NCBI GenBank assembly: GCA_028820325.1
Contig: JAPPJO010000026.1
Coordinates: 1 to 64,000, forward strand
Direction of reading: 5' to 3'
DNA length: 64,000 bases
DNA from: Gammaproteobacteria bacterium
GTDB lineage: Bacteria; Gemmatimonadota; Gemmatimonadetes; Longimicrobiales; Gaopeijiaceae
Shown: positions 54,506 to 60,752 of the stretch, in pieces
Layout of the letters: each line of letters opens with the position of its first letter
Numbering within the stretch: the stretch's first letter is position 1
Position numbers and translations under genes: made by a program
Notes under the pieces: model-generated
Told to the model about the DNA's origin: nothing
The model's input: the letters and a program-made list of their open reading frames with translations, nothing else
Databases searched by the model: none

Positions 54506-55702
54506 TTACATCGGCACGCCCGCGACCGTTCCCGTCGTCCCGGCGGTGGCGGGGTGGGTTTCGCGATCGGCCGTCGGGTCTCCTGCTTGCACCTCGAGCC
54601 AGTCCGTGAACCTGCGTTCGGGCCGGCCCTCCCACGCCCGGCGGTGCCAGGCATCGCTCGCGAGCAGCGAAAAGCCCAGCGTGGCTTCGCAGAACACCAT
54701 CTGTTCGCGCGCCGTCTCCACCTTTCCCCAGCTTGCGGCCTCGCGCAGGGTCGAACCGGACAGGGCGCCGTCGCGACTGTCCGCGACCGTGAGCTGCACG
54801 GCATATCGGTGCATCGATACCTCCGAGGGCGTAGCCTCGCCGGTCCCATCCCCTGAAGCGGGCGCCCGCGCCGAGGCGGCATCGTCCTCTTGCAGCATCT
54901 CCGCGGCCACCACGATGTCCTGGGCAAAGTTCTTGGGAACCCCTCCGCCGAGCATGAGCAGCCCCGTAGCGCGGGAAGCGAGCTTGATCCGGGCGAGCTC
55001 GAGGAAGTCCCTCCCCGAGTCCAGCGACACCGGTTCGCGCCCCTCGCGCGCGGCCGCGGCCTGGTGCAGCACGATGCCGAACCCGGCGGAGCAGTCGCTG
55101 AGAGCGGGCACGAAGACCGGAACCCTCTTCCGGTACGCCGAAAGCACCACGGATTCCGACTCGGGGAAGCTCACATCGAGGAAGCGGCCCATTTCGGTCA
55201 GGATCTCACGCGACGAATACGGGCGCGCGGAAAGCCGATCGAAGATGCCCCTCATCGTCCGGTCGCAGACGCGCAACTCCCGCTCGTCGATGTAGGTGTC
55301 GTAGATGCGGTCGATGGCTAGCTCGCGCAGACGTTCATCCGGCACCACCGGATGCTCGGGCGAGCCTGGAGCCATGTAGTGCCGGAACCCCAGAGCCTCG
55401 AAGAAGTCCTGATCCACCATGTTGGCGCCCGTCGACACCACCACGTCCACCATGCCTGAGTCGATCAGCGTCACCAGCGCCTTCTTGAGGCCCGCGGACA
55501 CGAGCGATCCCGCGAGCGTGAGGATGACGGTGCACTCCGGGTCGGCGAGCATCTCCGAACAGATGTCCGCCGCGCGCGCCAGGTTGCGGGCCTGGATGGC
55601 CGTCGGCCGGAACTGGCCTATGACCGGGCGGGCGTCGAACGCGCGGATGTCGACGTGCTCCACCGGGCGGCAAAGAAGATCGCGTCTGGCAGGATCGGTC
55701 AC
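54506..55702 (-). CDS. Deoxyhypusine-synthase-like protein
   Basis: A 398-residue bacterial homologue of deoxyhypusine synthase. The catalytic Lys is Lys327 in the ASWGKVE motif. The NAD-binding and substrate areas include SGLVSAGLKK-like LAGSLVSAGLKKALV and STGANMVDQDFFEALG. Bacteria lack eIF5A, so relatives are thought to make polyamines such as homospermidine. GTG 55702 is preceded by GGAGG at 4 nt. It is divergent from argR and the arginine genes, which suits use of arginine-derived amines. Confidence 0.85.
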   Translation of the reverse strand: MTDPARRDLLCRPVEHVDIRAFDARPVIGQFRPTAIQARNLARAADICSEMLADPECTVILTLAGSLVSAGLKKALVTLIDSGMVDVVVSTGANMVDQDFFEALGFRHYMAPGSPEHPVVPDERLRELAIDRIYDTYIDERELRVCDRTMRGIFDRLSARPYSSREILTEMGRFLDVSFPESESVVLSAYRKRVPVFVPALSDCSAGFGIVLHQAAAAREGREPVSLDSGRDFLELARIKLASRATGLLMLGGGVPKNFAQDIVVAAEMLQEDDAASARAPASGDGTGEATPSEVSMHRYAVQLTVADSRDGALSGSTLREAASWGKVETAREQMVFCEATLGFSLLASDAWHRRAWEGRPERRFTDWLEVQAGDPTADRETHPATAGTTGTVAGVPM

Positions 55703-55838
55703 GAAGCCTCCACATGCGGAAAGCGGTTGAACGGACCGGTAATCTGCCGGAATCGGCGGCATTTCTCCATTCCCGGTACCGCCGGGGTGAGCGAGATTGT
55801 CCGGGGCACTCCTCGCCCGCGGCCAACGCCGGCAGGGG

Positions 55839-55866
55839 TTGACGATTCCGCGGAACTGCATATCAT
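55839..55866 (+). promoter_or_regulatory. Predicted promoter of the argR operon
   Basis: TTGACG (55839-55844) and TATCAT (55861-55866), with 16-nt spacing, form a good sigma-70-like pair. It faces argR, and the predicted start would lie just ahead of three operator-like repeats. Confidence 0.5.
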
Positions 55867-55885
55867 GTGCATATCACTGCTAGTA

Positions 55886-55962
55886 TGCCATTCTGTCATG
55901 TGACGTCTGCCAAAATGTCAGACCGACCACAGATTCCCCTGCGATCCTCTGCCAGAATGTCA
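55886..55962. promoter_or_regulatory. Three TGCCANNNTGTCA repeats, likely operator sites
   Basis: TGCCATTCTGTCA (55886-55898), TGCCAAAATGTCA (55908-55920) and TGCCAGAATGTCA (55950-55962) match the pattern TGCCANNNTGTCA. They are 22 and 42 bp apart, about two and four helical turns, so they lie on one face of the DNA. The half-sites also form a weak palindrome. They sit downstream of the predicted promoter, in front of or within the argR start, which suits autorepression. Confidence 0.55.
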
Positions 55963-56433
55963 GACCGACGAACAGCCCCTGCGCAGCGCCGGATGGTGAT
56001 CACGAGAATCCTGGAGAACCGCGAAGTCGCCAGCCAGGAGGAACTCGTGCGCCTGCTGGGAGAACGCGGGATTGTCGTGACCCAATCCTGCATCAGCCGG
56101 GACCTGGCCCGGTTGGGAGCGATGAAGGGTGCTGGCGGCTACAGCCTGCGGCCTCTCAATCTCTCGGAAGAGGACCGCCGCACGCTCTCCAGCTACGCGC
56201 GCGCCGTGCACGCGGCCGGTCCGAATCTGACCGTTGTGCGCACCGCGACCGGGGCCGCCCAGCGCATCGCGCTCTTCCTCGACCGGATGGGCTGGAAGGA
56301 AGTCCTGGCGACACTGTCGGGCGACGACACCATCTTCATCGCAACCCGAAACCGCAGCGAACAGCGTGCCCTGGTGGGCCGGCTGCGCCGCGAGGCCGGC
56401 CTGTCGGGCTCACGGAACGAGGGCAATGCGTAG
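55957..56433 (+). CDS. argR: ArgR-family transcriptional regulator
   Basis: A 158-residue ArgR/AhrC-type regulator. The N-terminal winged helix reads RILENREVASQEELVRLLGERG and VTQSCISRDLARLGAMKG, the family DNA-binding signature. The C-terminal domain, including VVRTATGAAQRIALFLD, should form hexamers and bind arginine or a related effector. ATG 55957 is one of several possible starts (55915, 55993); all have weak ribosome sites, and 55957 falls inside the third operator repeat. The end overlaps the next gene by 8 nt, so it leads an arg operon. Confidence 0.9.
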   Translation: MSDRRTAPAQRRMVITRILENREVASQEELVRLLGERGIVVTQSCISRDLARLGAMKGAGGYSLRPLNLSEEDRRTLSSYARAVHAAGPNLTVVRTATGAAQRIALFLDRMGWKEVLATLSGDDTIFIATRNRSEQRALVGRLRREAGLSGSRNEGNA

Positions 56434-57484
56434 CATCGTCATCGACAAACTGGCGTCCGTGGCCTCGGATCTGGGTGCCGAGCGCGAGATCCGCGTCGGC
56501 GACCGCATTCCCAGCGAGGAGGGCGTGATGGTGGCGGTCGAGGTGCTGAACGAGAAGTCCTCCTACAACCAGTTGGAACTGGCCAGCGGACGCATGGCGC
56601 GCGTGCGCCGCGGGGATGTCGTCGTGGGCGCGCTGGGCCACCGCAAGGCGCTGTTCGGCTACTCCGGCCACGTGCCCGCAACCACGCGCCCGGGCGACAC
56701 GGTGCAGATACTGAACATGGGCGGCGTGCTGGGAATATGCGACGCCGTCAACGCCTCCCTGGGACAGCCCTTCGACGCGCGTGTGCTCGGGGTGGTTCTC
56801 GAGTTCCCCTATCTCGGCGAGCGCGTGGGCGTCCCGGCCCGGGTGGGCGGCGACCCACTCGACACCGGGGCGCGACTGGAATTGGGAGGAGTTCCCGTGG
56901 TGGCCCTCGCCGGCACCTGCATGAACTCCGGCAAGACGGCGGCGGCATGCGCGGTGATCGGGCGCCTCCGGCACAGGGGTCATGTAGTCGACGCCTTCAA
57001 GGCAACCGGCGTCTCGCTGCGGCGCGACATCCTGGCGATGGAGGACGCGGGTGCGCGCAACACGTCCATCTTCACCGACTTCGGCGTCGTCAGCACCGGG
57101 CCCGGCAATGCGCCGGACCTGGCGCGCACGATGCTGCGCCGCCTGGCGGCCGAGCGTCCCGACGCGATCGTCTTCGAGTTGGGCGACGGAATCCTGGGCG
57201 CATACGGCGTGGAGGCCATCCTGCGGGACGACGCCGTGCGCGCAAACATCTCGTGCCTCCTCCTGTGCGCGTCCGATCCGGTCGCTGCCTGGGGCGGCGC
57301 GAGGCTGCTCGAAGACGAGTTCGGGATGACTCCAGCCTTCATCACGGGGCCCGCGACCGACAACCAGGTCGGGCTCGACATCATCCGGGAAAGAACCGGG
57401 CTGGAAGGGGTGAACGCGGTCACCCACGGCGCTCGCCTCGGAGACGCCGTAGCCGCCCGCATCGGGCTGGGGGCGCATGCCTGA
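56426..57484 (+). CDS. P-loop protein of the arg operon, DUF1611/DgcN-like
   Basis: A 352-residue protein. A beta-rich N-terminal half is followed by a P-loop domain: Walker A is GTCMNSGKT at residues 163-171, with Lys170. Then come AFKATGVSLRRDIL, VFELGDGILGAYGVE and a late THGARLGDAVA segment. The order of these elements resembles DUF1611 proteins, whose characterised member DgcN N-acetylates D-glutamate. The match is by eye and distant. It lies between argR and argC with overlaps on both sides. No other candidate for the first arginine step is nearby. Confidence 0.7.
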   Translation: MRSIVIDKLASVASDLGAEREIRVGDRIPSEEGVMVAVEVLNEKSSYNQLELASGRMARVRRGDVVVGALGHRKALFGYSGHVPATTRPGDTVQILNMGGVLGICDAVNASLGQPFDARVLGVVLEFPYLGERVGVPARVGGDPLDTGARLELGGVPVVALAGTCMNSGKTAAACAVIGRLRHRGHVVDAFKATGVSLRRDILAMEDAGARNTSIFTDFGVVSTGPGNAPDLARTMLRRLAAERPDAIVFELGDGILGAYGVEAILRDDAVRANISCLLLCASDPVAAWGGARLLEDEFGMTPAFITGPATDNQVGLDIIRERTGLEGVNAVTHGARLGDAVAARIGLGAHA

Positions 57485-58568
57485 ATCGATTCCCGCCATT
57501 GTACTGGGCGCATCCGGGTACGTGGGCGGCGAGCTGCTTCGCCTTCTCGCGTCCCACCCCTGCATGCAGCCGGCCGCGGTCGTGTCGCGAAGCCGGAGGC
57601 ACGAGCCGGTGGAAACAGTCTTTCCGAACCTGCGTGGTGTGTGGCCGGACCTGCGCTTCACCGGCATCGACGACCTGCCCGACACGCTCGGTGACCGCTG
57701 CGCCATCTTCTCGACCGCCGCCCACGGAGCCAGCGCCCAACTGGTCGACCGGGCCCTCGGCGCCTGTGCGGAGCGGCAGTGCGTCCCGAGCGTGGTCGAC
57801 GTATCCGCGGACTTTCGCTTTCGTGACGCCGAGGCCTACGAAGCCGTCTACGGGATCGAGCACGGCGCCCCGGATCGCATGCCGATGTTCCGGAGCCTGC
57901 TGCCGGAGCACGCCACCATACGCAAGCCCCGGCACGTCGGCCATCCCGGGTGCTTTGCGACCGGAATGCTGCTCGCCGCCATGCCGCTGATGCGCCCCCA
58001 GGCAAGGGGCCGCCCGGCCGGACGTAGTCGCAGCGCGCTGGTCGATCCCCGCCTGATGGTCAGCGCGGTGACGGGGAGTACCGGGGCGGGCCGCGCTCCC
58101 AGGCCCACGACCCACCACCCGACCCGGCACGCCAACATGTTCGCGTACAAGCCGCTCGCGCATCGCCATGCGCCGGAAGTGGAAGGGATCCTGAGGGCAT
58201 CGACCGGCCGGGGCGTACAACTGCACTTCGTTCCGACGTCCGGCCCGTTCGCGCGCGGCATCTACATGGTGTTGCATGCCCGGCTGCTCGACGGCGTTGA
58301 CGCGAGCCGGGTGCGTGACGCCTATGCCGATCACTATGCGAAGGCGCCCTTCGTGCACCTGGTCGATGCGCCGCCCAGGCTGAAGGACGTGGTGGGCAGC
58401 AATCACGCCCATCTGGCCACGGCGGTGAACCGGGGCACGCTGGCGGTCACGGTGGCGCTCGACAACCTGGTCAAGGGCGCTGCCGGAGGGGCGATCCAAT
58501 GGATGAATGTGCTGCACGGGCTTCCCGAAACCACCGGGCTGACCACTCCGGCAGCGTCATGGATGTGA
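57477..58568 (+). CDS. argC: N-acyl-gamma-glutamyl-phosphate reductase
   Basis: Reduces N-acylglutamyl phosphate to the semialdehyde, third step of arginine synthesis. The Rossmann N-terminus reads VLGASGYVGGELLRLL. The active Cys159 lies in HPGCFATG. GSTGAG and the C-terminal LDNLVKGAAGGAIQWMNV resemble the Bacteroidetes-type ArgC more than the enterobacterial form, in which NPGCYPT is usual. Bacteroides uses N-succinyl intermediates, so the acyl group here is open. It overlaps the upstream P-loop gene by 8 nt. Confidence 0.92.
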   Translation: MPESIPAIVLGASGYVGGELLRLLASHPCMQPAAVVSRSRRHEPVETVFPNLRGVWPDLRFTGIDDLPDTLGDRCAIFSTAAHGASAQLVDRALGACAERQCVPSVVDVSADFRFRDAEAYEAVYGIEHGAPDRMPMFRSLLPEHATIRKPRHVGHPGCFATGMLLAAMPLMRPQARGRPAGRSRSALVDPRLMVSAVTGSTGAGRAPRPTTHHPTRHANMFAYKPLAHRHAPEVEGILRASTGRGVQLHFVPTSGPFARGIYMVLHARLLDGVDASRVRDAYADHYAKAPFVHLVDAPPRLKDVVGSNHAHLATAVNRGTLAVTVALDNLVKGAAGGAIQWMNVLHGLPETTGLTTPAASWM

Positions 58569-58623
58569 ACGCGTGGCCCACCGCGAGCGGATCCGGCCTC
58601 AGCGGGCAGCGCCGGGCGCCGAG

Positions 58624-59814
58624 ATGAACACACCAGCTCCGACCCTCGTTCCGGACGCGCGCCAGGCCGAAGCGCGGCATCTGGCCCAGGTGTACGGCCA
58701 GTTGCCTCTGGAGCCGGTATCGGGCCGGGGCGCCTATCTGCGGTGCGCCGACGGGCGCCGGCTTCTCGATCTCTACGGCGGGCACGCGGTGTGCGCGCTC
58801 GGCTACGGTCACCCGCGGGTGCTTGAAGCCATCCGCAGGCAGGCGGGCGAACTGATGTTCACCAGCAACGTGAACGCGCTGAGGGTGCGGGCACGGGCCG
58901 CCGACAAGCTGGCCGAGTTCGCGCCGGACGATCTCGACTGCGTTTTCTTTGTCAATTCGGGAGCGGAGGCCAACGAGAACGCCCTCAGGCTGGCCTGCAG
59001 ATTGACGGGCCGCAGGCGCGTGGTCGCGCTGGAACACGGATTCCACGGCCGCTCGGCCGCCGCCGCCGCCGTGACCTGGCGGGCCCGCGAGCGCTGGTAC
59101 GGCTTCCCGGACACCCCGTTCGACGTGACCTTCGTGCCGCGCGACGACGCGGCCGGAGCGGTTGCCGCCATCGACGACGAGACCGCAGCCGCCATCATCG
59201 AGCCCATCCAGGGCATCGCGGGCGCGTACGTGCTCCAATCGGACCATGTGCGTGCCTTGCGCGCGGCCTGCGACCAGCATGGCGCCCTCCTGATCGCGGA
59301 CGAGGTGCAATGCGGCATGGGACGGAGCGGGAAACCCTTCGCGATCGAGCACACCGGCGTAGTGCCGGACATGCTGACCACCGCGAAGGCGCTCGGCGCC
59401 GGGTTCCCCTGCAGCGCGCTGATCATGTCACGAGCTCTGGGCGATCAGCTGCGAATCGGGGACATGGGCAGCACCTTCGGGGGCGGTCCGCTCGCGTGTG
59501 CGGTCATCGAAGCGGTGCTGGACACGATCCGCGAGGAGGGGCTTCTGCAGCAGGCGGCGATGCGCGAGAAGGAGATACGCGCCAACTGCCTCGCGGGACC
59601 GGTGCTCGGCATCCGGGGCCGCGGCATGCTGCTCGGACTCAAGTGCAGGACAAGCGCGCGCGAAATCCGCGATGCGCTCCTGCACCGGGACATCCTCACC
59701 GGAACCAGTTCGGATGCGTCATGGCTGCGCGTCATGCCTCCGCTCACGCTGCGGGCGTCGGAAGCGGCGCAGTTCGCCGAGGCCCTGGGCGCCATCGCGC
59801 AGGACGGCACGTGA
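58624..59814 (+). CDS. argD: Acylornithine aminotransferase
   Basis: A class-III PLP aminotransferase of 396 residues that converts acylglutamate semialdehyde to acylornithine. Lys255 in TTAKALGAGFP binds PLP, NSGAEANENALRLA and FHGRSAAAA are the phosphate and substrate loops, and IADEVQCGMGRSG holds the conserved Asp. ATG 58624 is preferred; a GTG further upstream is in frame. It stands between argC and argB, and its stop overlaps the argB start by 4 nt. Confidence 0.92.
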   Translation: MNTPAPTLVPDARQAEARHLAQVYGQLPLEPVSGRGAYLRCADGRRLLDLYGGHAVCALGYGHPRVLEAIRRQAGELMFTSNVNALRVRARAADKLAEFAPDDLDCVFFVNSGAEANENALRLACRLTGRRRVVALEHGFHGRSAAAAAVTWRARERWYGFPDTPFDVTFVPRDDAAGAVAAIDDETAAAIIEPIQGIAGAYVLQSDHVRALRAACDQHGALLIADEVQCGMGRSGKPFAIEHTGVVPDMLTTAKALGAGFPCSALIMSRALGDQLRIGDMGSTFGGGPLACAVIEAVLDTIREEGLLQQAAMREKEIRANCLAGPVLGIRGRGMLLGLKCRTSAREIRDALLHRDILTGTSSDASWLRVMPPLTLRASEAAQFAEALGAIAQDGT

Positions 59815-60752
59815 AGCGGTCACGCGCCGCCGACCGGAGGTTTGCCGGCCTGCGCGCCGCGGCGCCCTACGTGCGTCTCTTCCGCGAACGCATCTTCGTC
59901 CTGAAAGTGGGCGGTGAAGTCCTCAGGAGTTCCGGGCGCATCGATGCTCTGATGGAACAGGTGGGGATCCTCAACTCCCTGGGGATCCGCCTGGTTCTCG
60001 TGCATGGCGGTGGGCCCCAGTCCACCGAACTCGCGCGCCGCCTGGGCCACGAGCCCCGCATGGTGGCGGGCCGCCGGGTCACGCGTTCAGAGGATCTGCG
60101 CGTCGCCGCCCAGGTCCTGAGCGGCGAGGTCAACACGGCCTTGCTGGGCGCGTGCCGAAAGGAAGGGATTCACGCCGTGGGCGTCTCGGGGGTCGACGCC
60201 GGCCTGGTGACAGCCACCCGCCGTCCGCCGATGCACATGGAGGGGGAGGGACCGGATCCCGTGGACTTCGGATTCGTGGGAGACATCGCAACCGTCGATC
60301 CCTCTTCGCTGCACGTCTTCCTGGACCAGGGGTGGGTGCCCGTCGTGAGCCCGCTTTCGGCGGATGCGGAGGGCCGGCTGCTCAACATCAATGCGGACAC
60401 CGTGGCGAGCGCGCTCGCCCAGGCGCTCGAGGCCACGAAGCTCGTTTTCACCATGTCGGCGCCCGGCATTCTCCGCGACCTTGAGGATCCGGCGACGCTG
60501 ATCTCCTACCTTGATCTTGCGGGGCTCCGCGAGTTGCACGAGCAGGGCGTGCTCGCCCGTGGAATGCTCGCCAAGGCGGCGGCCATCGAGGGCGCCATCG
60601 AGGGCGGCGTCCCCCGCGTGCACCTCATTTCCGGGAGCGCGCGCGACAGCCTGCTGCGCGAGATCTTTACAAACGAGGGCTCCGGCACCCTCATCGTGCG
60701 GAGCGTCGGAACGCTGTCGAGCGACGAGCAGCAGGCGGGCGAGGGGGGATAA
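59811..60752 (+). CDS. argB: Acylglutamate kinase
   Basis: A 313-residue amino-acid kinase that phosphorylates N-acylglutamate, second step of arginine synthesis. FVLKVGGEVL, VLVHGGGPQSTELARRLG and GRRVTRSEDL are the family core, and FGFVGDIATVD and LLNINADTVASAL are closer to Bacteroidetes-type ArgB proteins. It begins at GTG 59811 overlapping argD. Immediately after its stop, remnants of a different gene begin, so any further arg genes are not next to it. Confidence 0.92.
   Translation: MKRSRAADRRFAGLRAAAPYVRLFRERIFVLKVGGEVLRSSGRIDALMEQVGILNSLGIRLVLVHGGGPQSTELARRLGHEPRMVAGRRVTRSEDLRVAAQVLSGEVNTALLGACRKEGIHAVGVSGVDAGLVTATRRPPMHMEGEGPDPVDFGFVGDIATVDPSSLHVFLDQGWVPVVSPLSADAEGRLLNINADTVASALAQALEATKLVFTMSAPGILRDLEDPATLISYLDLAGLRELHEQGVLARGMLAKAAAIEGAIEGGVPRVHLISGSARDSLLREIFTNEGSGTLIVRSVGTLSSDEQQAGEGG

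Follow-up and report, generated by a model that had tools for sequence, protein, structure and literature searches.

A P-loop protein encoded before argC as a predicted N-acylglutamate synthase in place of ArgA and ArgJ

How does arginine synthesis begin in a bacterium in which searches return neither ArgA nor ArgJ? The question is raised by an arginine operon in a stretch of 64,000 nucleotides (the window: positions 1 to 64,000 of contig JAPPJO010000026.1, assembly GCA_028820325.1), from an organism recorded as Gammaproteobacteria bacterium and placed by GTDB in the Gemmatimonadota. In this operon a P-loop protein, here called X, is encoded between argR and argC. We propose, from sequence comparison, that X is quite probably an N-acylglutamate synthase that opens arginine synthesis in this operon, replacing ArgA and ArgJ. 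N-acylglutamate is its most likely product because of its conserved gene order, the absence of ArgA and ArgJ from the genomes that carry it, and the elimination of other genes in one complete cluster. An earlier note on this DNA had suggested such a new synthase; all three lines of evidence strengthen the suggestion, which falls short of proof.

The features of the operon are the following:

55957..56433, + strand: argR, arginine repressor (PF02863 at 61.6 bits and PF01316 at 50.8 bits, both above cut-off)
56426..57484, + strand: X, P-loop protein of 352 amino acids, predicted N-acylglutamate synthase (from family, synteny and structure model)
56912..56938, + strand: Walker A motif (P-loop) of X, residues 163-171 (residues invariant in an alignment of 48 members)
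57477..58568, + strand: argC, N-acyl-gamma-glutamyl-phosphate reductase (TIGR01850 at 274.3 bits, cut-off 233.6)
58573..59814, + strand: argD, N-acylornithine aminotransferase (PF00202 at 306 bits; TIGR00707 at 320.9 bits, below its cut-off of 410)
59811..60752, + strand: argB, N-acylglutamate kinase without a GNAT domain (TIGR00761 at 203.2 bits, cut-off 151.3)

Conservation of the operon and the family of X

The open reading frames bear out the earlier note's description of tightly packed arg genes. Indeed, the five genes lie on one strand, with 8-base overlaps at both argR/X and X/argC, and the GTG start of argB (59811) falls within the stop of argD. A scan of species genomes for X matched 415 stretches, of which 370 were confirmed and 80 kept as loci, and the gene order of these 80 was read with ten reference genes sought. 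Among these genes X is the neighbour before argC in all 80, which makes the arrangement more than chance; it is itself preceded by argG in 72 and by argR in 8. The order argR-argG-X-argC-argD-argF-argB-argH is complete in 62/80 loci and is kept in 10 others that lack genes at one end or both, and the remaining 8 share the order of the window (a deoxyhypusine-synthase-like gene, argR, X, argC, argD, argB). The same holds for a more distant group of X, clade B (42-47% identity), in which X stands before argC in 11/11 loci, preceded by argG in 10 and by argR in 1.

By record title, the carriers are mostly Gammaproteobacteria or unnamed Proteobacteria, Chromatiales, Woeseiaceae, Steroidobacteraceae and Nevskiales included. 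The eight loci nearest to the window (94-99% identity) are titled Gemmatimonadetes or BD2-11 clade in five cases and Gammaproteobacteria in three; we take the window itself to be Gemmatimonadota, and some titles, such as Klebsiella and Rhodospirillaceae, presumably belong to mislabelled bins.

At E <= 1 X matches no Pfam family, and it reaches no NCBIfam cut-off; its sole NCBIfam matches, with CobB and MobB in the P-loop region, are at chance level, and a search of the PDB returned no sequence relative among solved structures at E <= 10. Its own family is populous: 6778 of 8000 scored protein candidates match at E <= 0.001, and no precomputed Pfam domain is recorded for any of the best 120. 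By these searches the family is large and unannotated. In a tree of 48 sequences, clades A and B, which we call arginine-type X, form one branch (support 0.91), within which clade B alone is not monophyletic. In the Walker A motif G163, M166, G169, K170 and T171 are invariant in 48/48 aligned members, as are K192, D201 and E251 beside it; D218 is likewise invariant.

ArgA, ArgJ, elimination and the acyl group

The earlier note had seen neither ArgA nor ArgJ, and a profile search of the window's own genome (97.4% complete) confirmed this. Indeed, ArgJ (PF01960) gave 0 matches there, with control matches in 10/14 genomes, and the ArgA model TIGR01890 matched only ArgB, at 137.8 bits against a cut-off of 202.85, even at E <= 10. 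The same pattern holds across X genomes. ArgA exceeds its cut-off in 0 of 45 arginine-type X genomes, versus 10/10 genomes that carry only paralogues of X (clades C or D, described below; 10 of 13 such genomes entered this comparison; Fisher P 3e-11). In two of the 45 (G070 and G257) a clade C paralogue is present as well. Moreover, in the class to which G070 belongs (274 genomes), with ArgA counted at E <= 1e-80, six have arginine-type X, 184 have ArgA and none has both (ArgA in 0/6 with X versus 184/268 without; P 0.001), and ArgA is present in 13/13 paralogue-only genomes. ArgJ is absent from 30/30 other X genomes. Among 61 Gemmatimonadota genomes it is found in 0/10 with X versus 26/51 without, none having both (P 0.003). 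The ArgJ count of 0/40 joins these 30 and 10 genomes, with G107, G130, G208, G257 and G324 left out, and the three P values are uncorrected for kinship. X is thus both linked to arg genes and found where ArgA and ArgJ are missing, in searches made with models of these two enzymes and not of ArgA2, ArgA3 or short forms.

Hidden forms of the classical enzyme were also considered. A Xanthomonas-like fusion of a GNAT domain to argB was dismissed, since AA_kinase is the sole Pfam domain of ArgB, and no fused ArgH-GNAT was present in the two ArgH proteins scanned. Matches of the ArgA model in X genomes span the kinase part. Some of these genomes, but not the window's, also have separate weak matches to the GNAT part of the model (E 5e-8 to 9e-4). 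By PF00583 the window's genome (5 Mb) has only three GNATs. None matches a glutamate acetyltransferase model; their best fits, none of which reaches cut-off, are to ArsN1, AAC(6')-Ii and weak AAC(6') models.

A single Gemmatimonadota cluster, L150, permits an argument by elimination. It reads argG-X-argC-argD-argF-argB-M20 hydrolase-argH-argR, and it holds a candidate gene for every step past N-acylglutamate, deacylase included; its M20 hydrolase carries both M20 Pfam domains and fits the ArgE/DapE family best (157 bits, below the cut-off of 217.6). A second locus, L149, has the same order with an M20 match between argB and argH. Since the acylation of glutamate is the only step left in L150 and X the only gene left, X most likely makes N-acylglutamate.

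Which acyl group would be used can be approached through the carbamoyltransferases. According to PMC4581275, acetyl and succinyl types are hard to tell apart by overall similarity and are discriminated by three residues: Glu92, Asn185 and Lys302 in the acetyl type; A/S/P/V/Q, P and V/I/E in the succinyl type. The three knotted enzymes scanned (L008, L115 and L150) exceed the cut-off of the N-acetylornithine model. We examined 71 knotted enzymes from X loci, with a 72nd sequence, the classical enzyme of the window's genome, set apart. Site 92 is A in 69, P in 1 and V in 1; site 185 is P in 71/71; site 302 is V in 37, A in 31 and E in 3, and never K. All three sites follow the succinyl rule in 40/71, the other 31 having Ala at site 302, and none of the 71 has an acetyl-type residue. 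The enzyme of L150, in addition to the 71, has V, P and E. Because these enzymes lack acetyl-type residues and mostly fit the succinyl type, the gammaproteobacterial relatives and L150 probably use a succinyl group. The window's genome encodes a classical ornithine carbamoyltransferase (382 bits, cut-off 281), and its acyl group is therefore not readable from such residues. Thus, the earlier note's hint of a Bacteroidetes-like, succinyl route agrees with the relatives and does not extend to the window's own genome.

Fold, mechanism and competing explanations

The earlier note had likened X to DUF1611, a family whose member DgcN is a D-glutamate N-acetyltransferase (the DgcN structure 7xrj is titled N-acetyltransferase). 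At the level of sequence this failed: the profile search that returned no Pfam family also missed with PF07755 (DUF1611), which has 0 matches in the whole of the window's genome. PF07755 matches six of eight clade B genes in the Gemmatimonadota set, all below cut-off, and it exceeds its cut-off at one paralogue, L100, but across 42 residues around the P-loop only. A clade A profile matches DUF1611 weakly (probability 31, 70 columns), and a profile with paralogues added reaches a probability of 65 over 206 columns. Judged by these profiles, the relation to DUF1611 is remote and X itself is not a member.

The likeness lies in the fold. In the predicted model of X (predicted local distance difference test 94.2, predicted template modelling score 0.90), residues 153-352 adopt the P-loop fold common to DUF1611, BioD, CTP synthase and DgcN; this domain is equally close to BioD and DUF1611, and slightly less close to DgcN. 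DUF1611 matches start at model residue 47, 56 or 99, yet align 180-189 residues in total. Residues 1-126 form a beta-rich part without a clear counterpart among the matches listed by Foldseek and VIA-align, lists filled by one domain, this part not having been searched alone.

On the preferred reading, X would acylate L-glutamate at its alpha-amino group, and ArgB, ArgC and ArgD would then take N-acylglutamate to N-acylornithine. The phosphates of acyl-coenzyme A (acyl-CoA) would sit in the P-loop domain, as presumed for the fold-sharing DgcN, with glutamate bound near the invariant D201, D218 and E251. In the gammaproteobacterial relatives and in L150 the knotted carbamoyltransferase would act next, on a probably succinylated substrate. 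In the window's genome the acyl group would be removed before carbamoylation, because the enzyme there is of the classical ornithine type.

Several observations weigh against this reading. First, BioD and CTP synthase, which use ATP, match the fold of X slightly better than DgcN does. Second, Ala at the Lys302 site in 31/71 carbamoyltransferases falls outside both published classes. Third, ArgA is also absent from 84/268 genomes of the G070 class that lack X (at E <= 1e-80), and 25/61 Gemmatimonadota genomes have neither X nor ArgJ. Five of these 25 belong to the window's own family, in which six genomes of other genera were examined. Organisms nearby therefore use other first-step enzymes or are auxotrophic, and the absence of ArgA and ArgJ is by itself no proof of the role of X. 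Fourth, the GNATs of the window's genome were sought by PF00583 alone, and no search for ArgA2 was made. Finally, the elimination in L150 is strong but not closed, because ArgA3, proposed to be the N-acetylglutamate synthase of 12 Veillonella and Dialister genomes, is itself an M20 protein (PMC9026213).

The first of these points bears on the chemistry of the reaction. X might instead be a first-step ligase like BioD, in which ATP activates free succinate or acetate at the P-loop for transfer to glutamate, without CoA; we regard this as a tentative alternative. BioD ranks first in the Foldseek list, as CTP synthase does in that of VIA, and K192, D201 and E251, invariant beside Walker A, have counterparts in BioD which we take to be ATP and Mg residues. 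The modelled fold does not decide between acyl-CoA and ATP chemistry. A bolder form of this idea, which we consider rather unlikely, makes X a new class of enzyme, a BioD-fold, ATP-driven P-loop ligase making N-succinylglutamate from free succinate. Arginine synthesis would then proceed without CoA in many Gammaproteobacteria and Gemmatimonadota, and the clade C and D paralogues would serve other pathways as N-acyl ligases of amino acids.

It is more doubtful still that an unrelated enzyme encoded elsewhere (an unrecognised GNAT of the ArgA2 kind or an M20 protein like ArgA3) performs the first step while X, for example, removes or recycles the acyl group. Deacylases do not usually have a P-loop fold. 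Such displacements are on record for both ArgA2 and ArgA3 (PMC9026213). A search of 38 of the 45 X genomes found M20 genes in all 38, the L149 and L150 clusters each contain one, and the 25 Gemmatimonadota genomes with neither X nor ArgJ would fit as well. However, this view has to face the absence of ArgA (0/45) and ArgJ (0/40) from X genomes, the position of X before argC in 91/91 loci, and the M20 protein of L150, which fits ArgE/DapE deacylases best, though below cut-off. Least of all do we expect X to be a SIMIBI nucleoside triphosphatase that regulates or chaperones ArgC or ArgB and is no acyltransferase: HypB, UreG, MeaB and signal recognition particle GTPases also match its P-loop domain, but the mutual exclusion of X with ArgA and ArgJ would be left unexplained.

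As an N-acylglutamate synthase, X would likely be a new and unrelated way to begin arginine synthesis. To our knowledge, no named first-step enzyme is a P-loop protein, and we found no paper on the X family in the literature searched, most subscription papers lying outside its scope. First-step enzymes on record include ArgA, ArgJ, ArgO, a short form and a corynebacterial form (PMC3827942), and a bifunctional synthase-kinase (PMC4490483). ArgA shares with X its predicted reaction and place in the pathway; X has neither a kinase nor a GNAT domain by Pfam and NCBIfam, and the two never occur together in the 45 genomes. ArgJ also makes N-acylglutamate, as predicted for X, which has no PF01960 match and is never accompanied by ArgJ in the 40 genomes. 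ArgA2 and ArgA3 are likewise proposed, in PMC9026213, as unrelated replacements of ArgA sited with arg genes; whereas X is a P-loop protein, ArgA3 is M20-like and ArgA2 is a GNAT, the N-succinylglutamate synthase of Bacteroidetes (PMC9026213; for BT3761 also PMC7311316). DgcN shares the P-loop domain with X and belongs to D-glutamate breakdown, whereas X is predicted to act on L-glutamate in arginine synthesis and has the beta-rich part without a clear counterpart among the listed matches. From BioD and CTP synthase X is set apart by its extra N-terminal part and its location in an arginine operon.

If the proposal is true, thousands of unannotated proteins would receive a function, a gap in arginine synthesis would be filled in many uncultured Gammaproteobacteria and some Gemmatimonadota, and false predictions of arginine auxotrophy from such genomes could be corrected. 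Furthermore, the succinyl route of arginine synthesis would reach beyond Bacteroidetes, and the SIMIBI P-loop fold would be shown to take part in the committed step of an amino-acid pathway.

Paralogues of X and minor features of the locus

Two further clades of paralogues have other surroundings. Those of clade C (L118, L119 and L120; 30-35% identity) adjoin an M20 hydrolase gene in 3/3 loci, and the two hydrolases scanned fit glutamate-carboxypeptidase-like enzymes, below cut-off; of their genomes, G098 has ArgA and G070 and G257 have arginine-type X. Those of clade D (L121-L129; about 23-33% identity) adjoin an ABC transporter gene in 9/9 loci, with ABC_tran and ABC_membrane domains in the one scanned, and ArgA is present in all nine genomes.

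In the window, the open frame of argR begins at 55867, and argD has an alternative ATG start at 58624; ArgD best fits acetylornithine transaminases in NCBIfam, all below the cut-offs of the models. In a scan with the E. coli ARG box consensus, no site 5' of argR came closer than 6 mismatches in 18 positions. A divergent deoxyhypusine-synthase-like gene (54506-55861, - strand) adjoins argR and scores 500.1 bits, against a cut-off of 500, with the model of 1,9-bis(guanidino)-5-aza-nonane synthase. It is kept in 8/8 loci of the window's type and may connect arginine with long polyamines.

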